Positions 2,660-62,343 of a stretch of 64,000 nt of DNA are shown here, in pieces. The position numbers and the translations under genes are program-made. The notes beneath the pieces were generated by a model. That model was not told where the DNA came from, made no database searches, and saw nothing but the letters and a program-made list of their open reading frames with translations. Each line of letters opens with the position of its first letter. Within the stretch, counting starts at the first letter, position 1. The stretch is from Halorubrum aethiopicum (lineage in GTDB: Archaea > Halobacteriota > Halobacteria > Halobacteriales > Haloferacaceae), in contig NZ_LOAJ01000001.1 of assembly GCF_001542905.1 (NCBI RefSeq), positions 434,001-498,000 on the forward strand. The letters run 5' to 3'.

Positions 2660-3856
2660 CTAGCTATCGGAGGCGGTCGAGTCCGCCGACTGCTCCGGCT
2701 CGGGTGCGGCGGACGGGGGGAAGTCGAAACGGTCGGCGTCGTTCGCCCGCGGGAACGTCACCTCGAACCGCGTCCCGCCGAGGTCCGCCTCCCCGACCGA
2801 GATCGTGCCGTCGTACTCCTCGACGAGGCTGTCGACGATGAACAACCCGCCGCCTCCGCCGTCGTCGGCGCCGTCGCCGTCGCCCGCGCCGTCATCGGCC
2901 GCGTCGCCGAACAGCGCGGCCCGCTGCTCGGGGGGAAGTCCCGGTCCGTCGTCGTCGATGGACAGCGTGACCGCCCGGTCGTCGTCACGGACGGTGACCC
3001 GGAGAGTGGCGTCGCCGCCCGCGTGCTCGACGGCGTTCTCGACGAGGTTGTCGACGACCGACCGGAGGCCGTCGTTCGCCGTGACCGGGGCCTCCTCCGT
3101 GAGGTCGGCCTCGACGGTCACGTCGGGCCGGTCCCTGAGCCCCTCGAGTATCTCCCGAGTGACCGACGCGAGGTCGACCCGATGGAGGTCGGCGTCGCCG
3201 ACGAGCGCGTCGGCGACGGCGCTCGTCGTCTCCAGACGATCGAGCCCCTCGTCGGCCTTGGTCGCGATCACCGCCGCGGCGTCGCGCCCGTCGGGACCGG
3301 CAGCGTCGCCGGCGGCGGAGCCGGAGTCGCCTCCGCCGTGGGCGGTCGCCTCGGCGAGGTCCGCGTACCCGCGGATCGTCGACAGGTCGTTCCGGAGGTC
3401 GTGACGGATCAGGTGGTTCACGAACGACACCGCCCGCGTGGCGTCGCGCGCACGGCGAGCCTCCGCCTCCTGGCGAACGGCGAGGTATCCCGCGATCGCG
3501 CCGCCGAGCGCACCCGAGCCGGCGGCGACCAACAGCGGGAAGACGGGTTCGACGAGGGGGCGACCCTCGACCGCCCGGACGAGCAGGGTCGCGCCGATCG
3601 CGCTCGCCGCGAGGAACGCGCCGGCCACGGTCCAGCGAGCGACGCGTCCCTCCTCGCTGCGGGTGAAGCCGGCGTCCCGGACCCGCACTCCCGCGTAGAC
3701 GACGCCGAGGGCGATCCCGCCGTCGAGCGCCAGCGCGAGCGCGGGACCGAGGATCTCCCCGACGGCTCCGATCTCGGTCCCGTGGTGGATCGTCGCGACG
3801 AGCAGCAGGCTACACCCGATCGCGGCGACGACGGCGTAGCCTCGTGGTTTCGACAC
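2660..3856 (-). CDS. Membrane-bound sensor histidine kinase
   Basis: About 398 residues. Four to five hydrophobic segments fill the first 130 residues without a large extracellular domain. A DHp region with the H-box RHDLRND follows (phospho-acceptor His near 152), then a HATPase domain with N-box (DNLVENAVEHA), G1 (DDDGPGLPP) and G2 (GGGGGLFIVDSL). A Gly/Asp-rich insertion in the ATP lid (DAADDGAGDGDGADDGG) is typical halophile filler. No response regulator is adjacent. The start is uncertain: I chose the GTG at 3856; a TTG at 3886 would add ten residues. The signal sensed is unknown. Confidence 0.85.
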   Translation of the reverse strand: MSKPRGYAVVAAIGCSLLLVATIHHGTEIGAVGEILGPALALALDGGIALGVVYAGVRVRDAGFTRSEEGRVARWTVAGAFLAASAIGATLLVRAVEGRPLVEPVFPLLVAAGSGALGGAIAGYLAVRQEAEARRARDATRAVSFVNHLIRHDLRNDLSTIRGYADLAEATAHGGGDSGSAAGDAAGPDGRDAAAVIATKADEGLDRLETTSAVADALVGDADLHRVDLASVTREILEGLRDRPDVTVEADLTEEAPVTANDGLRSVVDNLVENAVEHAGGDATLRVTVRDDDRAVTLSIDDDGPGLPPEQRAALFGDAADDGAGDGDGADDGGGGGLFIVDSLVEEYDGTISVGEADLGGTRFEVTFPRANDADRFDFPPSAAPEPEQSADSTASDS

Positions 3857-5997: not shown

Positions 5998-7068
5998 TCA
6001 GTCGTCCGCGGCCGCGGCGTCGACCTCGGCTTCGTGGAGCTCGCCGGCGCGCTCGCGCTCCGAGAGGTAGTCGTCGGCGTCGAGCGCGGCCTTCACGCCC
6101 ATCCCGCCGGCGGTCACCGCCTGCTGGTAGTGGTGGTCGACCACGTCGCCCGCGCCGAAGATCCCCTCGACCGCGGTCGCGGTCTGTCCCCCGTCGCGAC
6201 CCCCCTGCGTCAGGAGGTAGCCCGCGTCGTCGAGCTCGACGCCGGTGTCCTCCAGGTACTCGGTGTTCGGGGTGTGGCCGATGGCGTAGAACACCGCCCC
6301 GACGTCGAACTCGTACTCGTCGACCTCGTCGGCGGTCGCCGGGTCCTCGAGCTTCTCCTTGGGGTGGCCGTCGGGGTGCTCGACGAGCGTGACGCCCGTG
6401 ATCCCCTCCTCGGCCGTGCCGTGGATCTCCGTCAGCTCCGTGTTCTTCAGGATCTCGACCTCGCCGTCGTCGACCTTGTCCATCACGCGCTCGATCCAGA
6501 CGTCCTCCGCGCGGAACTCCTCGCGGCGGTGCGCGATGTAGACGGTGTCCGCGAACTTGGTGAGGAAGTTGGCCTCCTCCATGGCGGCGTCGCCGCCGCC
6601 GACGACGAGCATGTCCTCGCCGCGGAAGAACGCGCCGTCGCAGGTCGCACACGTCGAGAGCCCGTACCCCATCAGGTCGTCCTCGCCGGGGACGCCGAGC
6701 GTCCGCGCCGAGGCCCCGGAGGCGGCGATCACGGCGTCGGCGGTGTAGACGTCGCCGTTCGTGAGCTCGACCCGGAAGTGCCCCGCGGGCTCCTTCCGTA
6801 CGTCGTCGACGATCCCGCTCCGGAACTCGGCCCCGAACTTCTCCGCCTGCGCGCGCATCTCGTTGATGAGCTCCGGCCCGGAGATCCCGTCGGGGAAGCC
6901 CGGATAGTTCTCCACGTCGGTCGTGAGCGTGAGCTGGCCGCCGGGCTCGTCGCCCTCGATCAACAGCGGATCGTTGTTCGACCGGGCCGCGTAGATCGCC
7001 GCGCTCAACGCGGCGATCCCGCTTCCGGCGACGAGGAGCCGTCGGTGCTCGAGTATTTCATCGCTCAT
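5998..7068 (-). CDS. trxB: Thioredoxin reductase (FAD/NAD(P)H)
   Basis: A 356-residue flavoprotein of the low-molecular-weight thioredoxin reductase type. The FAD-binding motif GSGIAALSAA is near residue 15, the redox-active CATC at 140-143, the NAD(P)H-binding GGGDAAMEEA at 157-166, and HRREEFRA near 180. It passes electrons from NAD(P)H to thioredoxin such as that at 579-848. The C-terminal tail is about 25 residues longer than in bacterial enzymes and acidic. On the minus strand an ACATAT box lies about 27 bases before the ATG, consistent with a leaderless transcript. Confidence 0.93.
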   Translation of the reverse strand: MSDEILEHRRLLVAGSGIAALSAAIYAARSNNDPLLIEGDEPGGQLTLTTDVENYPGFPDGISGPELINEMRAQAEKFGAEFRSGIVDDVRKEPAGHFRVELTNGDVYTADAVIAASGASARTLGVPGEDDLMGYGLSTCATCDGAFFRGEDMLVVGGGDAAMEEANFLTKFADTVYIAHRREEFRAEDVWIERVMDKVDDGEVEILKNTELTEIHGTAEEGITGVTLVEHPDGHPKEKLEDPATADEVDEYEFDVGAVFYAIGHTPNTEYLEDTGVELDDAGYLLTQGGRDGGQTATAVEGIFGAGDVVDHHYQQAVTAGGMGVKAALDADDYLSERERAGELHEAEVDAAAADD

Positions 7069-18276: not shown

Positions 18277-18601
18277 ATCGTTGCGGTGGCGCGCCTGCGA
18301 GCGTCCCGGAGGGGCGCGAGCAGAACGCGAGGGACGCGGTGAGCGCTCGGAGAGCGCTCACCGCGAGGCTGGGGAGGCGTGAGGTGCGGTTGCGGGACGG
18401 TTGGGCGAGACTCAAAGGGGCAGTCGCCGGCGGCGGAGCCGCCGGCTGCCAGAGGCGCGGAGCGCCTCGCTGTCGCGAGGACGAAGACGCGCGACGCAAG
18501 GCACCACAGGGAGCGAGTGAAACGAGCGACCGAGGAGCACAGCGAGCGCATCGAGTCCTCGCGACTGGGGCTTTGGCGGTGTTCACCGCGTCGGCAACGA
18601 T
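18277..18601 (+). repeat. Dispersed structured element, copy A (long form)
   Basis: This occupies most of the 427-base gap between two convergent genes. It is bounded by an 8-base inverted repeat (ATCGTTGC at 18277-18284, GCAACGAT at 18594-18601). Hairpin 1 is 18301-18307 with 18311-18317. Hairpin 2 is a perfect 12-base stem, 18336-18347 with 18353-18364. The conserved box starts at 18365 (GAGGCTGGGGAGGCGTGAGG). Two further hairpins lie near 18426-18446 and 18453-18470. A long-range stem joins 18472-18482 to 18555-18565, and the end carries GGCGGTGTTCACCGC. No credible reading frame exists. Homologous copies lie at 40917, 52588 and 62120. It may be a mobile non-autonomous element or a structured RNA. 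Confidence 0.8.
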
Positions 18602-23975: not shown

Positions 23976-24074
23976 CGCTCGGGTGTCCTCCGGGCGGAAC
24001 CAAAAAGGTGCGGAAGCGTCGCGGCGCGCGGCGATCCGTGTCGGGGCGCTCCGCGTGGAGCGCCCCCGATCGCC

Positions 24075-28219: not shown

Positions 28220-30243
28220 CGGAACCGCGTTCGACTCGACGCGTCGAGGGACTCACGTCCGACGAAAAGAGCGGCTCGAGACGGATCCGGAACGCGGCCA
28301 GTCGGAGGGACGAGGATCCGGGCGATCGGAGGGGCGAGGATCCGACCGATGCGGATGTCGATGGGCCGACCGATCCGAACGTCGATGATCCCGCCGACCG
28401 AGACGGCGGCGACGCGGTCGACGAACGATCGACGGTGGCGTCCGCGCTCGCGACGGTCGTCGCGCTCGTGAGCGACCGCGGCGGTGCCGACGGCGGCGGA
28501 TCGACCGAACCGGGATCGGACGAACTCCGACGCGCGGTCGCGTTCCTCGAGTGGGAGTCGTCGGCCGGGCGGGCGATCGAGACCGGATATCGCGTCGGGA
28601 TCGGCGTGGGACTCTGCTTCGCCGTCGCCGGCGTGCTCCTCGTCGGGACCGTCCCCGGGCTGCTGGCGGGCGTTGCGGGCGGGCTCGCGGCGACGCACGC
28701 GGTACACCGAGGACCGGTGTGGCTCGCGGCGCTCCGGCGAACTCGCGCGCTCGGAGCGACTCCCGGACTCGTCGGACGGCTCGTCCTCCGGATGCGTCTC
28801 GATCCGTCGACGGAGCGCGCGGTGCGGTTCGCCGCGCGGACCGGTCGCGGACCGCTCGCCGAGAACCTGTCGCGGCACGAACGACGGTGCGTCAACGGCC
28901 CGACAAGCGGGCTCCGCGAGTTCGCCCGCGAGTGGAGCGCGTGGTTTCCGGCGATCGAACGGGCGTCGACGCTCGTTCGGACGGCGGCGGCCGCGCCGCC
29001 GGAGCGCCGCGGCCGGTGTCTCGACCGGGCGCTCGAGACGACGCTCTCGGGGACGACGGAGCGGCTGGCCGAGTTCGTCGGGAACGTCCAGGGACCGGTG
29101 TCGGCGCTGTACGCCTTCGGCGTGCTCCTGCCGCTGGCGCTCGTGGCGCTGCTCCCGGCCGCGGCCGCCTCGGGCGTGCCGATCCCGCCGGCGGCCGTCG
29201 CCGGGATATACCTGTTTGCTCTGCCCGTCTGCCTCCTCGTCGCGGCCGCGTGGCTCCTCTCGAAGCGTCCCGTCGCGTTCCCGCCGCCGACGATCGGGAG
29301 CGACCACCCAGATGTCCCGGAGCGGCGGGTCCACGCGGTCGCCCTCGGCGCCGGATCCGGCGTCGCCGCCGGGATCGTCTCCGGCTCGCTCGTCGCGTCG
29401 TGGGCAGCGCCGATCGGCGCGGTCGGCGTTGGGGTCGGGACGACGCTCGTCGTCCTCGTCCGGCCGCGACGGGCGGTGCTCTCGACGGTCACGGCGATCG
29501 AGAGCGGGCTTCCCGACGCGATGACGATCGTCGGTGGCGACGTCGCCGAGGGCGTCTCGGTCGAGCGGGCAGTGGCGAACGCCGGCGACAAGCTCGACGG
29601 CGCGACCGGCGAGGTCTTCGAACTCGCCGCACGACGCAGCGACACCCTTCGCGTCGACGTCCGCGAGGCGTTTCTGGGTGACGGCGGACCGGCGGCGACG
29701 GTTCCCTCGCCGAGGGTTCAGGGGACCGTCGCCCTGCTGGCGGTCGCGGCGCGGGAGGGGCGACCGGCCGGGGACGTGTTGTTGGAGCTCGCGGACCAGC
29801 TCGAGCGGCTTCGAGAGCTGGAGCGCGACGCGCGGAGACAGCTCGCGACGGTGACGGGCACGCTGGCGAACACCGCGGCGGTGTTCGCTCCGCTGGTCGG
29901 CGGCGCGACCGTCGCGCTCGCGACCGGAGTCGAGTCGGTCGGGACGGGAGGGCTCGAGACGACCGCCGCGATGGCGAGCGACCCGCTCGCGGCCGACGCC
30001 GCCGGGCCGGTTCCGCCGACCGAAAGCGAGAGCGAGGAGGTCGCGAGTGCGCTGTCGGTGCCGGTCCTCGGCCGGATCGTCGGCGTCTACGTGGTCCTCC
30101 TCGCCGGGATCCTCACGGCGCTCGGAACGGGGCTCGAGCGGGGCTTCGACGGGACGCTCGTCGCGTACCGGATCGGGATCGCGCTGCCGACGGCGACGAC
30201 GACGTACCTCCTCGCGTTCGCCGCGGCAGGGATGCTGTTATAG
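28216..30243 (+). CDS. TadC/PilC-type pilus assembly membrane protein
   Basis: About 675 residues from a GTG overlapping the ATPase stop (GTGA). The first 100 residues are a disordered, repetitive charged tail (DPTDADVDGPTDPNVDDPADRD). Two GspF-like modules follow with about nine membrane segments (for example GIGVGLCFAVAGVLLVGTV, YLFALPVCLLVAAAWLL, IAGILTALGTGLERG-like C-terminus). GspF/TadC proteins form the inner-membrane platform that the ATPase turns. The extra-long upstream reading frame in the same phase is only a shadow of the ATPase gene. Confidence 0.88.
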   Translation: MTEPRSTRRVEGLTSDEKSGSRRIRNAASRRDEDPGDRRGEDPTDADVDGPTDPNVDDPADRDGGDAVDERSTVASALATVVALVSDRGGADGGGSTEPGSDELRRAVAFLEWESSAGRAIETGYRVGIGVGLCFAVAGVLLVGTVPGLLAGVAGGLAATHAVHRGPVWLAALRRTRALGATPGLVGRLVLRMRLDPSTERAVRFAARTGRGPLAENLSRHERRCVNGPTSGLREFAREWSAWFPAIERASTLVRTAAAAPPERRGRCLDRALETTLSGTTERLAEFVGNVQGPVSALYAFGVLLPLALVALLPAAAASGVPIPPAAVAGIYLFALPVCLLVAAAWLLSKRPVAFPPPTIGSDHPDVPERRVHAVALGAGSGVAAGIVSGSLVASWAAPIGAVGVGVGTTLVVLVRPRRAVLSTVTAIESGLPDAMTIVGGDVAEGVSVERAVANAGDKLDGATGEVFELAARRSDTLRVDVREAFLGDGGPAATVPSPRVQGTVALLAVAAREGRPAGDVLLELADQLERLRELERDARRQLATVTGTLANTAAVFAPLVGGATVALATGVESVGTGGLETTAAMASDPLAADAAGPVPPTESESEEVASALSVPVLGRIVGVYVVLLAGILTALGTGLERGFDGTLVAYRIGIALPTATTTYLLAFAAAGMLL

Positions 30244-40528: not shown

Positions 40529-40570
40529 GTGACGCCGATCAGCCTCAGCGGTGACGCCGATCAGCCCCAG
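40529..40570 (+). repeat. 20-bp direct repeat spanning a stop codon
   Basis: GTGACGCCGATCAGCCTCAG (40529-40548) recurs as the same 20-mer with one change at 40551-40570, period 22. The second copy contains the stop codon and last codons of the minus-strand zinc-finger gene, so the 3' end of that gene has been tandemly duplicated. Confidence 0.8.
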
Positions 40571-40818
40571 TGCCAGAAGGAGTGACCGTCCTCCTCGACC
40601 GGGTCGGTCCGTTCGCGGAGGTCGGCGACGTCCTCGGCGGTCGGCTCGACGTCCTCGGGCAGCGACTCCATACAGTCGAAACAGAGGAAGAACTCGGATC
40701 CGTCCGCGAGCTCCAGGGTCATCCCCTGGGTCGACTCGAACGCGAAGTTCCAGAGGTCGCCGATCCCGCCGGCGATCCTGACGGACCGCTCACAGACGTC
40801 GCACGGCTCCGAGGCCAT
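40561..40818 (-). CDS. Small zinc-finger-like haloarchaeal protein
   Basis: An 85-residue protein with CDVC near the N-terminus (residues 6-9) and CFDC in the middle (LCFDCMESLP), a likely four-cysteine zinc site. The rest is acidic (EPTAEDVADLRERTDPVEED) and ends FWHWG. Such small zinc proteins are abundant in Halobacteria and mostly uncharacterised. The 3' end is duplicated (see 40529-40570). It precedes the repeat element copy at 40917 and is separate from the thiamine-type ABC operon. Confidence 0.8.
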   Translation of the reverse strand: MASEPCDVCERSVRIAGGIGDLWNFAFESTQGMTLELADGSEFFLCFDCMESLPEDVEPTAEDVADLRERTDPVEEDGHSFWHWG

Positions 40819-40916: not shown

Positions 40917-41080
40917 CGTTGTCGGCGCGGTGACCGCCGGCACGGTGACCGTCGCCGACGCGCCGGGCGACCGCAACCGCACCTCACGCCTCCCCAGCCT
41001 CGTCAGTCGCCTCCGGCGACTGACTCCCTCGCGTTTCGGAAGCGGGCCGGATGGCCCGCTTCCGAGCGCGCCGACCGCGC
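40917..41080 (-). repeat. Dispersed structured element, copy C (short form)
   Basis: Read on the minus strand it matches the family order. Hairpin 1 is the longest of the four copies, a perfect 12-base stem (41037-41048 with 41053-41064). Hairpin 2 is a perfect 10-base stem with three-base loop (41002-41011 with 41015-41024). The conserved box is the complement of 40971-41001. The end is TCACCGCGCCGACAACG in minus-strand reading. It lacks the long 3' arm of copies A and B. It fills most of the 284-base gap before the ABC ATPase gene's 3' end. Confidence 0.75.
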
Positions 41081-41102: not shown

Positions 41103-42269
41103 TCACTCGCCGCGCTCCGCCTCGATCACGTGTGCGTCCGCGGGGTCGAACCCCACGACGACCGTTCCCTCGAGGGGGTCCTCGGCCCGCACGACGAGGT
41201 CGCGGCCGTCACAGTCGAGGTGGACCCGCGTCGTCTCCCCGAGGAACTCCGCGCTCTCCACGTCGGCTCGGAGCCCGTTCTCGGCTCGTCCCACCCGGAG
41301 GTGTTGCGGGCGGACGCAGAACGTCACCCGGTCGCCGGGGGTCGGGGTCGCGGCCGCGGCGGCTTCGGGCTCGGACTCGCCGACCCCGACGCGGAGCGTC
41401 TCGCCGCCGATGTCGACGGGGACGGTTCGGTCGGGCGAATCCGTCCCGACAGCCGCGTCAGCGCCCTCGTCGCCCGGTCCCGCGACGACTCCCTCGAACA
41501 CGTTGTTGTCGCCGACGAACTCGGCGACGAACCGCGAGGCGGGCCGGCGGTACACGGACCGGGGCGACGCGACCTGCTCGGGCGTGCCACCCCGCATCAC
41601 CGCGACGCGGTCGGAGACGGAGAGCGCCTCCTCCTGGTCGTGGGTGACGTAGACGGTGGTGATCCCCAGCTCGCGCTGGATCTCGCGCACCTGAAGCCGG
41701 AGGCGCTCGCGTAAGCGCGCGTCGAGCGCGCTCATCGGCTCGTCCAAGAGCAGGAGGTCGGGGCCGGGCGCGAGCGCCCGCGCCATCGCGACCCGCTGTT
41801 GTTGCCCGCCGGAGAGGCTCTCCGGGTCGCGGTCGGCGGCCCCCGGAAGGTCGACGAGCTCGAGCAGGTCGCGGACGCGCTCGGCGCGGCTCGCGCCGCC
41901 CGGCGGCTCCGAGAAGCGCAGCCCGTAGCCCACGTTCTCGCCGACGGTCATGTGTGGGAACAGCGCGTAGTTCTGGAACACCACGCCCACGTTCCGCTCC
42001 TCCGGCGGGACGCCCGAGACGTCGCGGCCGCCGAACCGGATCCGTCCCTCGGTCGGCTCCTCGAACCCCGCGATCAGCCGCAGCGTCGTCGTCTTCCCGC
42101 AGCCGGAGGGGCCCACGAGCGTGAAGAACTCCCCCTCCCGGATCCGGAGGTCCACGCCCTCGACGGCGACCGTCCCGTCGTAGCGCTTGCTCACGCCCGC
42201 GAGCTCGACCGCCGGGGCGTCCGCGTCGGCGTCGCGGGGCGCGGCCGGAGGGTCACCCTCAGATCCCAT
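41103..42269 (-). CDS. ABC importer ATP-binding protein (thiamine/iron/polyamine type)
   Basis: About 388 residues. The ATPase domain has Walker A GPSGCGKTT, the signature LSGGQQQR, Walker B LLLLDEPMSALD and the Q-loop VVFQNYALFPHMTV. From about residue 240 a TOBE-type regulatory domain follows, with a large Gly/Ala/Asp insertion. It is third in the operon with the binding protein (44105) and permease (42259), so it energises that importer. The ATG at 42269 overlaps the permease stop by 11 bases; a GTG at 42278 is an alternative start. Confidence 0.9.
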   Translation of the reverse strand: MGSEGDPPAAPRDADADAPAVELAGVSKRYDGTVAVEGVDLRIREGEFFTLVGPSGCGKTTTLRLIAGFEEPTEGRIRFGGRDVSGVPPEERNVGVVFQNYALFPHMTVGENVGYGLRFSEPPGGASRAERVRDLLELVDLPGAADRDPESLSGGQQQRVAMARALAPGPDLLLLDEPMSALDARLRERLRLQVREIQRELGITTVYVTHDQEEALSVSDRVAVMRGGTPEQVASPRSVYRRPASRFVAEFVGDNNVFEGVVAGPGDEGADAAVGTDSPDRTVPVDIGGETLRVGVGESEPEAAAAATPTPGDRVTFCVRPQHLRVGRAENGLRADVESAEFLGETTRVHLDCDGRDLVVRAEDPLEGTVVVGFDPADAHVIEAERGE

Positions 42270-44094
42270 CGTACTCACCCCCGAGCCGCTCTATCACGAC
42301 GAAGCTCAGCCCGGTCACGACGAGGAGGACGACGCCCATCGCGGTCGCGGGTCCGAGCCGCCGGCCGATGAAGCGTTCGATCGCGACCGGCATCGTGTAG
42401 GCGTCCGCGCCGGTCGCGAGGACGACCGTCGCCGTGAACTCGCCCATCGAGATGGCGACCGCGAACGCCGCGCCCGCGACGACGCCCGGCCAGACCAGGG
42501 GGAGCTCGACGTCCCGGAGCACCCGCGCCCGCGACGCGCCGAGCGCGCGGGCGGACTCCACGAGCGACCGGTCGAGCGACTCCAGCCCGGGCGCGACCGT
42601 CCGGACGACGAACGGGTAACCCGCCACGGCGTGGGCGGCGACGATGGCGGCCGAGCCGGCCACCGCGATCCGCCAGCCGGCGACCTCTATCCCGAACACC
42701 AGCCCGCGGAGCAGCCCGAGCCCCACGAGGATCCCCGAGACGGCGAAGGGGGCCATCGCGACCGCGTCGAGGAGCTTCCGGCCGCGGTACTCGCGGGTGG
42801 TGATCACGGCGACGACGACGCCCATCGGCAGCGCGACGAGCGCCGACGCGGCCGCGAAGACGAGCGAGTTGCGGACGGCGGGCCACGGCCGCACCTGGAA
42901 CGCCGCGCCCGTGCGCTGGCGCTCCGCCAGGAACCGGTAGTGCTCGAGCGTGAGCGCCCCGTCGCCCCCGGTGACGCTCGCGAGGACCATGGAGGCGATC
43001 GGCGCGAGGAAAACCAGCGCCGCGACGACCGCGTAGACGCCGAGCCCGAGGCGGGGGAGGAGCTCCCGCGGAGTCGGCGCGGAGGGGAGGAGGGGTCGCC
43101 GCGGGAGCGGTCTGACGCCGCGCGAGGTCACCGTGTGTCGCGCCTCGTACCGGAGATACGCGCCGAGCACCGACAGCGAGATGGCGAGCTCGACGACCGC
43201 GAGCGCCGCCGCCTCCGCGTAGTTCAAATCGCGCGCGAGCCGGTAGACGAACACCTCGACGGTCGCCAGCTCGAACCCGCCGAGCGCGAGCACGATGGGG
43301 AACGTCCCGAAGGTGAAGACGAACGTGAGCGCCGCGCCCATCAGGACGGCCGGATACACCTGCGGCGCGACGACGTGGAGGAACGCCCGGAGCGGGCCCG
43401 CGCCGAGGCTCCGGGCGGTCTCGACCGCGCTCGCGTCGACGGACTCCCAGGCGGCCGTCGTCACCCGCGCGACGAGCGGCGCGTTGTAGAAGGCGTGGGC
43501 GATCACGATCGCCTCGAGCGTGAACAGGAGCTCGACGGGGCCGAGCCCGACCGCGCCGAGGAGGGCGTTGAGCGTCCCGTTCCGGCCGAAGGTGGCGACG
43601 TACCCCACCGCGACCATGATCGACGGGAGCACGAACGGGACGATGGTGAGGGAGCGCAGCGTCCGCCGGCCGGGGAACTCGAAGCGCGCGAGCAGGTAGG
43701 CGGCGGGGAGACCGAGCGCGACGCTCGCCAGCGTCGAGAGAGCGGCCTGGTAGGCGGTGAACCCGACGATCCCGAGCCGCCGATCCGGCGAGAGAAGCGC
43801 CCTCCCGACCGCGAGCGGGCTCTCGCCCGCGAACAGCCGCGCCAGCTCGCCGAAGTAGAAGGGGTCCCGCAGCAGGTCGGCGAAGACGGCGAGCGTGACC
43901 GCGCCGTCGACGACGACGGACTCGACGAGGACGGTCCCCACCGGGTAGTAGAAGACGACGGCCAACACCGCGACCGTCGCGGTCGCGAGCGCGGCCAGCG
44001 CGTGTCGCTCGAGGCGGTCGCGGAGCCGAGCCGGACGGTTCCGCCGGTGGCCGGGGCCCGCGGATCCGTCTCGATCGGGCGATCCGTCGCTCAC
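42259..44094 (-). CDS. ABC importer permease, thiamine/iron type (fused two-domain)
   Basis: A 611-residue protein from a GTG with about twelve membrane helices in two homologous halves, each carrying an EAA-type loop (for example ETARSLGAGPLRAFLHVVAP and ESARALGASRARVLRDVELP). This fused layout is that of ThiP/FbpB transporters. It forms the channel for the solute delivered by the binding protein encoded ten bases upstream. Strong similarity in layout to thiamine transporters supports thiamine, but iron(III) transporters share the architecture. Confidence 0.88.
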   Translation of the reverse strand: MSDGSPDRDGSAGPGHRRNRPARLRDRLERHALAALATATVAVLAVVFYYPVGTVLVESVVVDGAVTLAVFADLLRDPFYFGELARLFAGESPLAVGRALLSPDRRLGIVGFTAYQAALSTLASVALGLPAAYLLARFEFPGRRTLRSLTIVPFVLPSIMVAVGYVATFGRNGTLNALLGAVGLGPVELLFTLEAIVIAHAFYNAPLVARVTTAAWESVDASAVETARSLGAGPLRAFLHVVAPQVYPAVLMGAALTFVFTFGTFPIVLALGGFELATVEVFVYRLARDLNYAEAAALAVVELAISLSVLGAYLRYEARHTVTSRGVRPLPRRPLLPSAPTPRELLPRLGLGVYAVVAALVFLAPIASMVLASVTGGDGALTLEHYRFLAERQRTGAAFQVRPWPAVRNSLVFAAASALVALPMGVVVAVITTREYRGRKLLDAVAMAPFAVSGILVGLGLLRGLVFGIEVAGWRIAVAGSAAIVAAHAVAGYPFVVRTVAPGLESLDRSLVESARALGASRARVLRDVELPLVWPGVVAGAAFAVAISMGEFTATVVLATGADAYTMPVAIERFIGRRLGPATAMGVVLLVVTGLSFVVIERLGGEYDGI

Positions 44095-52520: not shown

Positions 52521-52587
52521 GGAGTGAGATGGAGCGGAAGGAGAGGTCGTTGAGAAATGTTATCTACTCGGCAAGTATCATTTCCGG

Positions 52588-52835
52588 CGCGGTGAACACC
52601 GCCAAAGCCCCAGTCGCGAGGCGGGCGCACGCTCGCTGTGCTCCTCAGTCACTCACTCCGTTCGCTCCTTCCGGTGCTTGCGTCGCCTGCGCCCGCCTCG
52701 CGACTGCCCCTTTGAATCCCACCCGACCGCGACCGTCCCGCACCTCACACCTCCCCAACCTCGCTGCTCACTTCGTTCGCAGCGTCCCTCGCGATCGGGT
52801 TCGCGCCCTTCGGGCGCTCACCGGCGCGCCACCGC
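52588..52835 (-). repeat. Dispersed structured element, copy B (long form, reverse)
   Basis: Read on the minus strand it follows the same plan as copy A: GCGGTGGCGCGCC at the start, hairpin 1 (52803-52808 with 52812-52817), a weaker hairpin 2 (52762-52767 with 52779-52784), the conserved box (complement of 52737-52762), CAAAGGGGCAGTCGCGAG, and the end GGGGCTTTGGCGGTGTTCAC. A perfect 18-base long-range stem pairs 52612-52629 with 52688-52705. It lies in the 341-base gap between two convergent genes. Confidence 0.8.
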
Positions 52836-56109: not shown

Positions 56110-57927
56110 ATGGACGCCGACGCCGTGAGGGCCCGCGCGGACGACCTCCCGACGGAACCCGGCGTGTACCAGTTCCGGTCCGGCGAGACGACCCTGTACG
56201 TCGGCAAGGCGGTCGACCTCCGTGACCGCGTCCGGTCGTACGCCGACCCGCGGTCCGCCCGGATCCGCGGCATGGTCGAGCGGGCCGACCGGGTCGAGTT
56301 CGCCGTCACCGACACGGAGACCCAGGCCCTGCTGCTCGAGGCCAATCTGATAAAACGGCTCCGACCGCGGTACAACGTCCGGCTGAAGGACGACAAGTCC
56401 TATCCGCTGGTCGCGTTCTCCGACCACGAGGTCCCGCGGATCGAGGTGACCCGCGATCCCGAGGAGGGCGCGGTCGCGTACGGCCCGTTCACCGACGTGG
56501 GCCGCGTCGAGACGATACTCAAGGCGATCCGCGACGAGTACCGGCTCCGCGGCTGTTCGGACCACAAGTACGCGAACCGCGACCGCCCCTGTCTCGACTA
56601 CGAGATGGGGATCTGCTCGGCCCCCTGTACCGGCGAGATCGATCCCGAGAGCTACGCCGAGGACGTCGCCGCCGCCCGGCGCTTCTTCGAGGGGGAGACC
56701 GGCGCGCTCGCCGACCCGCTCCGCCGCCGAATGGAGGCGGCCGCCGAGAGCGCCGAGTTCGAGCGCGCCGCGAACCTGCGCGACCGGTTGGAGGCCGTCG
56801 AGGCGTTCCACGGCGAGGGTGGCGAGGCGGTGAGCGACCGCTCGGACGACCGCACCGTCGACGTGCTCGCCGCCGCGATCGAGGGCGATACCGCCCGCGT
56901 CGCGCGCCTCCACAGCGAGCGCGGTCAGCTCGTCGACCGGAGCCGCCACCGGCTCGACACGCCGACGGTGGCGGCGGCGGTCGGCGGCGACGCGGAGGGT
57001 GGAGGGATCGACGGCGACGTCGACAGCGACGGCGACGGAGCCGTCACCGCCGACGCGCACACGCCGGCGGCGGTGCTCTCAGCGTTTCTCACCCAGTACT
57101 ACGCCGAGCGCGAGTTCCCGGACGCGGTCCTCCTGGCGGAGCGGCCGACCGACCCCGACGTGACCGAGTGGCTCGAACGCGAGGGCGTCTCGGTCCGGGT
57201 CCCCGGTGCCGGCCGGGAGGCGAAGCTCGTCGAACTCGCGTTGAAGAACGCCCGGAAACGCGGCGGCCGCGACGACCCGGTCGGCGCGCTCGCCGACCGG
57301 CTCGGGATCGACCGCCCGGCGCGGATCGAGGGGTTCGACGTGAGCCACGCGTCCGGGACCGCCGTCGTCGGCTCGAACGTCTGTTTCGTCGACGGGAGCG
57401 CGCGGACGGGCGAGTACCGCCGAAAGAAGCTCACCGACCGCAACGACGACTACGCCAACATGCGGGAGCTGGTCCGCTGGCGCGCGACCCGAGCGATCGA
57501 GGACCGCGACGGCCGTCCGGACCCCGACCTGCTGCTGATCGACGGCGGCGAGGGGCAGCTCGGCGCGGCTCGCGACGCGCTCGCCGAGGTCGGCTGGGAC
57601 GTGCCGGCGATCGCCTTAGCGAAGGCCGAGGAGCTGGTGGTGACGCCGGACGGCCCGTTGCGGTGGCCCGACGACGCCCCGGAGCTCCACCTCCTCCAGC
57701 GCGTCCGCGACGAGGCGCACCGCTTCGCCGTCCAGTACCACCAGACCGTCCGCGACGAGGTGAAGACGGTGCTCGACGACGTCCCCGGCGTCGGTCCGGA
57801 GACGCGAAAGGGGCTGCTCCGGCGGTTCGGATCCGTCGAGAACGTCCGCGAGGCCTCCCTCGAGGACCTCACCGACGTCGACGGCGTCGGCGACACGACC
57901 GCCCGGCGGCTCCGCGAGCGACTGTAG
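56110..57927 (+). CDS. uvrC: UvrABC excinuclease subunit C
   Basis: About 605 residues. The GIY-YIG nuclease begins with [17 protein letters not shown] and makes the 3' incision. A Cys-rich segment ([20 protein letters not shown] with CSAPC) follows, then a UVR domain that binds UvrB, an acidic insertion (about 295-320), the RNase H-like 5' nuclease ([23 protein letters not shown]) and two helix-hairpin-helix motifs ([17 protein letters not shown]). The ATG at 56110 fits the family; a GTG at 56101 adds three residues. Haloarchaea carry bacterial-type nucleotide excision repair. Confidence 0.94.
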
Positions 57928-62119: not shown

Positions 62120-62343
62120 GCGGTCGGCGCGCGCCTCCGAGCGCCCGACGGGCGCGAGGAGCCCGCGCGAGGTCGCCGGCGCGACGCGCCGGCTGCCGGA
62201 GAATCTCCGATTCTCGCTGGAGGCGGCGGCCCGGAGCGGCGTGCCCGCGACGGTCCGCCCGCCGAGGCTGGGGAGGCGTGAGGTGCGGTCGTAGAGCCGT
62301 CCGCGGTCGGGACCTCGGCGGCCGTCACCGCGTCGGCAACGAC
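62120..62343 (+). repeat. Dispersed structured element, copy D (short form)
   Basis: It fills most of the 384-base gap between nadE and the Nudix gene. Plus-strand reading gives GCGGTCGGCGCGCGCCTC, hairpin 1 (62141-62146 with 62150-62155), a GC-rich central part with less clear pairing (about 62220-62262), the conserved box 62264-62289, and the end GTCACCGCGTCGGCAACGAC shared with copy A. It lacks the long arm of copies A and B. It is the most diverged copy but shares box, hairpin 1 and both ends. Confidence 0.72.

Follow-up and report, generated by a model that had tools for sequence, protein, structure and literature searches.

An intergenic stretch of the Halorubrum aethiopicum genome (positions 40917-41080 of the window, that is, of the whole 64,000 nucleotides of DNA that were analyzed) carries hairpins with stems unlike those found at the same places in related copies, which raises the question whether hairpins are exchanged as modules between copies of a repeat or have changed by ordinary divergence. 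A sequence-only reading of this DNA had proposed modular exchange at fixed positions. The stretch is located between two minus-strand genes, one for a CxxC protein and one for a putative ABC-transporter ATPase, and represents a shortened copy of a repeat family that Halorubrum carries on its chromosome (Table 1). In a typical copy, conserved linkers alternate with quasi-palindromic stems in the order: a long stem (P1), the core, the core-adjacent hairpin, TCCCTCG, the distal hairpin and GGCGCGCCACCGC. Side-by-side reading of the copies gives, for the 5' part of the full element on the plus strand, the left end GCTGGCGCGGTGAAC, followed by CAAAG-CCC-CAGCC, P1, GGCTG-CCC-CTTTGAGTCCCACCC and then the core; the end motifs can pair into a closing stem. 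Both kinds of hairpin have the same canonical form: an outer stem of 4 bp is followed by a 2x2 TC/TC mismatch and then by an inner stem, which is closed by a loop of 3 or 4 nt. The element spans 186 to 539 nt including margins (83 of 134 copies measured).

The core occurs four times in the window, at 18.3, 41.0, 52.7 and 62.2 kb, and these occurrences probably correspond to the copies denoted A, C, B and D, respectively, in the sequence-only reading. The 41.0 kb copy is atypical in that it lacks P1 and, unlike most copies, has lost the TC/TC mismatch from both hairpins. Its perfect 10-bp core-adjacent stem was confirmed, and its distal stem is indeed perfect and in the place assigned to it, but with a length of 13 bp instead of 12. 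The core-adjacent hairpin of the 18.3 kb copy is perfect as well, although we count 14 bp where 12 bp had been claimed; the one at 52.7 kb is weak, as described, and the 6-bp stems reported for the distal position of copies B and D are the 6-bp inner stems at 52.7 and 62.2 kb. The window contains 8 perfect hairpins with a stem of 10 bp or more and a loop of 3-5 nt, compared to 0 to 5 in each of 20 order-1 Markov windows; together with the recurrence of the core against a reversed control of 0, this rules out chance hairpins from GC-rich DNA. Further perfect hairpins of 10-11 bp are located away from the window cores (3193-3218, 6994-7018, 24043-24066, 29866-29888 and 57277-57300). Two-hairpin modules of about 50 nt with variable stems were observed at 62163-62221 and in the loci L068, L072, L012, L031 and L086; these modules are inserted in linkers, next to hairpins or inside P1, in either orientation.

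Table 1. Parts of the repeat copies and flanking genes in the window
Feature	Position	Strand	Remarks
Left-end motif GGCGCGGTGA (5' side of closing stem), 41.0 kb copy	40924..40933	+	Upstream of P1 in fuller copies
Conserved 21-nt core CCTCACGCCTCCCCAGCCTCG, 41.0 kb copy	40982..41002	+	Up to 2 mismatches allowed: 130 copies in this genome, none with the reversed pattern
Core-adjacent hairpin, perfect 10 bp, fully paired TC/GA variant, 41.0 kb copy	41002..41024	+	Arms 41002-41011/41015-41024; loop TCC (minus strand GGA)
Conserved linker TCCCTCG, 41.0 kb copy	41025..41031	+	
Distal hairpin, perfect 13 bp, 41.0 kb copy	41036..41065	+	Arms 41036-41048/41053-41065; loop GGAT; AA/TT at the TC/TC mismatch position of most copies
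GCGCGCCGACCGC, variant of right-end motif, 41.0 kb copy	41066..41078	+	Common form GCGCGCCACCGC
18.3 kb copy, near full-length	18288..18591	-	Left end 18583-18591; right end 18288-18295
18.3 kb copy, parts		-	P1 arms 18567-18575 and 18412-18420; core 18364-18384; linker 18328-18334
18.3 kb copy, perfect 14-bp core-adjacent hairpin	18335-18365	-	
52.7 kb copy, near full-length	52586..52830	+	Left end 52586-52595; right end 52823-52830
52.7 kb copy, parts		+	P1 arms 52603-52611 and 52707-52715; core 52743-52763 (2 mismatches); linker 52785-52791
62.2 kb copy, without P1	62163..62333	-	Left end 62325-62333; core 62263-62283
62.2 kb copy, two-hairpin insert	between 62221 and 62163	-	Splits the linker; distal hairpin beyond the insert
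Gene for 85-aa CxxC protein	40561..40818	-	Anchor for orthologous sites
Gene for putative ABC-transporter ATPase	41103..42278	-	Presumed function, named from motifs

The genomic setting of the family is that of REP/BIME repeats, with a high copy number in both orientations and an intergenic location. The 130 cores of this genome (61 on the plus and 69 on the minus strand) all map to contig C1 (3,045,622 bases), with none on C2 (165,936 bases) or C3 (114,212 bases), and 126 of the 129 placed copies lie outside predicted genes (the gene caller, like the parsers and random-pair controls used below, was home-made). Among these 126 copies, 51 are located between convergent and 23 between divergent genes, and the orientation relative to neighboring same-strand genes is mixed (31 versus 21), without a clear transcription rule. 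No leading/lagging strand bias in replication was detected (69 runs versus 65.7 +/- 5.6). In 89 of the 130 copies, CGTCCCTCG, looked at as a possible counterpart of the GTAG/CGTC-type REP tag, is found within 130 nt after the core. A collection of viral contigs contained no exact core match, which speaks against a virus-borne element, and with two copies as queries, a plasmid collection that holds at least 9 Halorubrum plasmid records yielded partial matches only, including one to a Halorubrum plasmid (26% covered, 72% identity). The confinement of the core to the large contig, its lack in the viral collection and the partial nature of the plasmid matches make lively transposition less plausible and favor in-place reshuffling.

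The stems co-vary such that pairing stays intact. In the 133 of 247 copies with a canonical core-adjacent hairpin, the four outer pairs are Watson-Crick in 0.95-0.99 of the cases, compared to shuffled maxima of 0.81, 0.46, 0.79 and 0.80, and in the 187 of 247 copies with a canonical distal hairpin, outer pairs 2 to 4 reach 0.86-0.97 (shuffled maxima 0.55-0.60); distal outer pair 1, at 0.74, does not exceed the shuffled maximum of 0.77, to which a frequent allele with one additional G (25 of 187) contributes. The first version of the parser omitted 39 of 134 copies. Of the 260 hairpins whose arms are perfect, 234 retain the TC/TC mismatch (119 of 138 core-adjacent, 115 of 122 distal); TC/GA and GA/TC replace it in 5 and 1 core-adjacent hairpins, respectively, one or the other does so in 3 distal hairpins, and AA/TT is found once, in the 41.0 kb copy. 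On the opposite strand, TC/TC becomes GA facing GA, which we take to be the classic tandem sheared G-A pair. The loops, assigned a size of 3 or 4 by parity, are also strand-specific: minus-strand GNA accounts for 121 of 125 core-adjacent triloops (0 if read on the plus strand) and for 72 of 138 distal triloops (4 on the plus strand). Among tetraloops, GNNA is found in 34 of 49 distal cases, 7 of them GNRA, and in 4 of 8 core-adjacent cases, all 4 of them GNRA, as RNA would also prefer; no UNCG tetraloop was found in either hairpin. The mismatch and the one-strand GNA loops together hint at hairpins of single-stranded DNA. GNA triloops in DNA are called 'extraordinarily stable' in a title cited in PMC11101458, itself employing an ultra-stable GAA triloop, but loop closing in d(GNA) is likened to that of RNA GNRA loops in a passage of PMC5815330, so the loop signature is no proof of DNA. 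In a DNA energy model, the advantage of the minus strand was as small as 0.4-0.8 kcal/mol for eight canonical alleles, and the two perfect 41.0 kb stems showed no preference; the model does not decide between the strands.

The sequence-only reading had called for hairpins to be compared with their backbone. Since the backbone varies too little for tree building, incongruence was assessed via linkage and orthology instead of two trees. Linkage was analyzed in the 79 of 130 copies of this genome in which both hairpins are canonical, and assortment of the two within a copy proved to be nearly independent: there is no linkage between the two inner stems (P 0.13) or between the core-adjacent outer and the distal inner stem (P 0.16), and only weak linkage between the two outer stems (P 0.018). 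Within one hairpin, by contrast, the outer and inner stems are strongly linked, with mutual information of 2.05 versus 1.33 +/- 0.07 for shuffled pairs (n=83) and, in the second such comparison, 2.40 versus 1.89 +/- 0.05 (n=107). The core-adjacent allele recurs elsewhere in the genome for 49 of 125 copies. Furthermore, core-adjacent outer stems resemble each other more if they come from one genome than if they come from different genomes (0.191 versus 0.100, P < 0.001), as in concerted evolution. The distal outer stem (P 0.36) and the two inner stems (P 0.10 and 0.14) show no significant signal of this kind.

Where sites are orthologous, the element has retained its place and its core, but its interior has been replaced. 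We collected 64 pairs with both flanks matching in comparison with two sister genomes that are about 8-9% apart and were partly sampled (73 of 100 reported copies in G011, 18 of 74 in G014); parsing succeeded for 51 cores, 20 P1 stems, 59 core-adjacent hairpins and 54 distal hairpins. Flank identity averages 0.91 and 0.92, core identity 0.977 (51 pairs), and the DNA just outside the element is clearly orthologous (0.816 versus 0.627 for random pairs, P 9e-23, n=54; this and the following P values are rough because random pairs reuse copies). P1 (0.654 versus 0.647, P 0.87, n=20), the P1-core spacer (0.72 in both cases) and the distal hairpin (0.707 versus 0.683, P 0.34, n=54) are at the level of random pairs, and the core-adjacent hairpin is slightly above it (0.604 versus 0.547, P 0.04, n=59). 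Of 54 pairs, 45 differ in both hairpins and 3 have kept both, compared to 0.15% of random pairs matching in both. Exactly one hairpin was kept in 6 pairs against about 3.4 expected (6.35% of random pairs), which is no clear excess, so that single-hairpin exchange between orthologs has to be argued from the assortment test and from individual cases. In one such case, L180 and L086 share the core-adjacent hairpin, the distal hairpin of L180 is a half-and-half chimera of alleles, and a two-hairpin module of L086 is absent from L180. P1 is precisely absent in L299 at its place in L088, and L298 and L016 have an identical inner stem with a changed outer stem. The stem and loop of 41002-41024 recur in L254, which probably belongs to H. 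rubrum, at the ortholog of the site of the 52.7 kb copy. Thus, in accord with the initial proposal, the surroundings are kept and the stems are replaced, and modular exchange at fixed positions is supported by the assortment and orthology comparisons. No donor and recipient pair within one strain and no event within a species was caught, and among the named orthologs no species pair exceeded 93% identity (pairs with over 2 kb aligned).

The 41.0 kb site itself is variably occupied. The element is absent from it in the two sister genomes, and of 50 named loci, 20 have a core upstream of the anchor gene at a distance of at most 1.2 kb, with none in the other 30; the core-bearing loci, 19 titled Halorubrum and one Halobellus captivus, contain 17 different core-adjacent stretches. 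In the orthologous intergenic regions L140, L141, L152 and L158, we observed units of the type CAAAGCCCCAGCCGCTTACTTATAAATAGCTG with a TATA-like stretch; some of the units are tandemly arranged at a spacing of about 60 nt, and some species have them in the same intergenic region.

The core was detected in all 35 Halorubrum genomes searched (out of 52 genomes of the genus considered), with 14-181 copies each, and in 2 of 24 other genomes. One genome assigned to another family, G041, contains 27 copies of the Halorubrum core, by horizontal spread or contamination. The 19-nt P1 motif GGGTGGGACTSAAAGGGGC is far more widespread: with at most 1 mismatch, 273 of the 391 haloarchaeal genomes contain it, which represent 65 of 86 genera, against one match overall for the reversed control. 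In 30 loci from four other genera of two families, this motif opens a stem. If G-U pairs are allowed and the best of three registers is taken, all 10 positions of the arms pair in 23 of the 32 units listed (two units lacked the far arm and one locus was missed by the pattern), and the arm sequences differ among most of these loci. The loci L303-L332, each from one haloarchaeal genome of these four genera, contain a P1-like unit GGGTGGGACTGAAAGGGGC...GGGGCTTTC, the interior of which is of two kinds, one with GACGCAAGCAC...GGAGCGCAGCGAG and the other with TCAGCGACCCCTATC...GATATGTCGCTGAGCGACC. In L316 (G319) and at places in G398 and G362, the P1 motif occurs in head-to-head pairs with a spacing of about 40 nt, which recall REPIN/BIME pairs.

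The 41.0 kb element is, in our opinion, probably a shortened member of a REP/BIME-like mosaic family in Halorubrum whose copies appear to be reshuffled through ectopic gene conversion together with template switching. Conversion among the approximately 130 chromosomal copies would replace hairpins, with the linkers providing homology, and hairpin-templated copying would mend chimeric or mismatched stems, sometimes to perfection; the relevant structure may be a minus-strand single-stranded DNA hairpin in which G-A mismatches occur in tandem and the loop is GNA or GNNA. Such a combination of exchange and mending would yield shared alleles, independent assortment, chimeras and occasional perfect stems. 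Efficient gene conversion is reported for the polyploid haloarchaeon Haloferax volcanii (PMC8223754 and PMC11276520). Weighing against conversion, the linkers offer short homology for the exchange of a single hairpin (roughly 7-21 nt), and the residual core-adjacent likeness of orthologs as well as the outer-outer linkage weigh against full replacement and independence. Ordinary divergence, in which point mutations accumulate faster in hairpins than in linkers with no exchange at all, could account for the 3 pairs with both hairpins nearly identical but does not explain near-random hairpins next to orthologous flanks and a core that is 0.977 identical, the recurrence of alleles between sites or the presence of the 41002-41024 hairpin at the ortholog of a different copy; we consider it highly improbable.

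A structured non-coding RNA or mRNA-end structure, in which only the pairing in the transcript is selected and the differences are compensatory substitutions, would fit the strong covariation of the stems, the multi-branched folds that are alike in 14 copies and the full pairing of the P1 arms in most of the units listed from other genera. The recurrence of core-adjacent alleles within the genome, however, points to copying; the mostly GNA/GNNA loops with few GNRA and no UNCG suggest a DNA-like preference, and the orientation relative to same-strand neighbors is mixed. A known RNA family was also rejected as a candidate: no Rfam match reached the gathering score in the window, and the 6 hits with E of at most 1 from 6 loci are all far below it. 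On balance, an RNA-level explanation seems fairly unlikely. We also deem unlikely, somewhat more firmly, a miniature mobile element that repeatedly inserts at preferred intergenic sites with a transposase acting in trans, each sister species having its own insertion. The end motifs with their potential closing stem, the anchor loci that lack a core, the presence or absence of two-hairpin modules between orthologs and the small mobile repeats and 'SwitchRepeats' described for Haloquadratum in parts of PMC3119063 are all compatible with this possibility, and the edge data fit repeated insertion at one site too. Against it stand the distribution of the core among contigs, viruses and plasmids, the pairs in which both hairpins are kept and the outcome of a search of this genome for candidate transposase genes, limited to Y1 and TnpB: the Y1 transposase profile PF01797 had 0 matches, compared to matches in 5 of 14 control genomes, and the 4 TnpB loci found (about 3.2 kb each) all lack the core, P1 and end motifs, which speaks against derivation from IS605/TnpB ends.

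If the conversion and template-switching reading is correct, the family is a natural record of the creation, copying and mending of hairpins, with up to 181 copies per genome and replacement at sites shared between sisters. It would then become testable whether compensatory stem changes come via template switching or inter-copy conversion as opposed to two rare mutations, a question that bears on RNA evolution as well. By analogy with the proposals made for REPs, a topological or transcript-end role in the cell might be guessed. A broader notion, that class-wide haloarchaeal modules forming single-stranded DNA hairpins (with tandem G-A pairs, GNA-type loops and conserved linkers) are actively shuffled by a dedicated exchange machinery, each site thus showing a constantly shifting set of hairpins that serve a chromosomal role, strikes us as quite doubtful. 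Six 14-mers from the conserved motifs had 0 occurrences in open-licence papers, and no description of the P1 motif was found in Rfam searches or in such papers (supplementary files excluded). The main text of a REP survey of bacteria and archaea (PMC12306157) contains no word beginning with Halo- or Natr-.

Among known systems, the closest likeness is to REP/BIME elements, which are likewise intergenic palindromic repeats of high copy number and mosaic structure, more common between convergent than between divergent genes. The Halorubrum element differs in being a longer composite, archaeal and without a Y1 transposase in this genome, and in combining highly variable stems with fixed linkers and a conserved TC/TC mismatch. 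The two-hairpin modules that are present or absent at orthologous sites presumably resemble the paired REPs of REPINs. Compared to the REPIN/RAYT system (PMC3116915), the present family lacks a Y1-type gene in its own genome and has stems that vary from copy to copy. Evolution of REPs by gene conversion was already posed as a question in the title of Higgins 1988, cited in PMC3733652. The PATEs, SMRs and 'SwitchRepeats' of Haloquadratum walsbyi, as characterized in parts of PMC3119063, are also haloarchaeal non-coding repeats with palindromes; small repeats are nested in palindromes there, and differing repeats occupy one identical position in two strains. By that account, PATE palindromes resemble IS605-type ends, a likeness not seen for the Halorubrum family at the 4 TnpB loci, and SwitchRepeats switch as whole repeats, whereas exchange in Halorubrum appears to be at the level of the hairpin. 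Finally, under template switching in quasi-palindromes (PMC7202029, PMC8794818), copying from arm to arm would give TC/GA or GA/TC, and such stems do occur here; the difference is that in Halorubrum the process would act on a dispersed repeat family, alongside exchange between copies.
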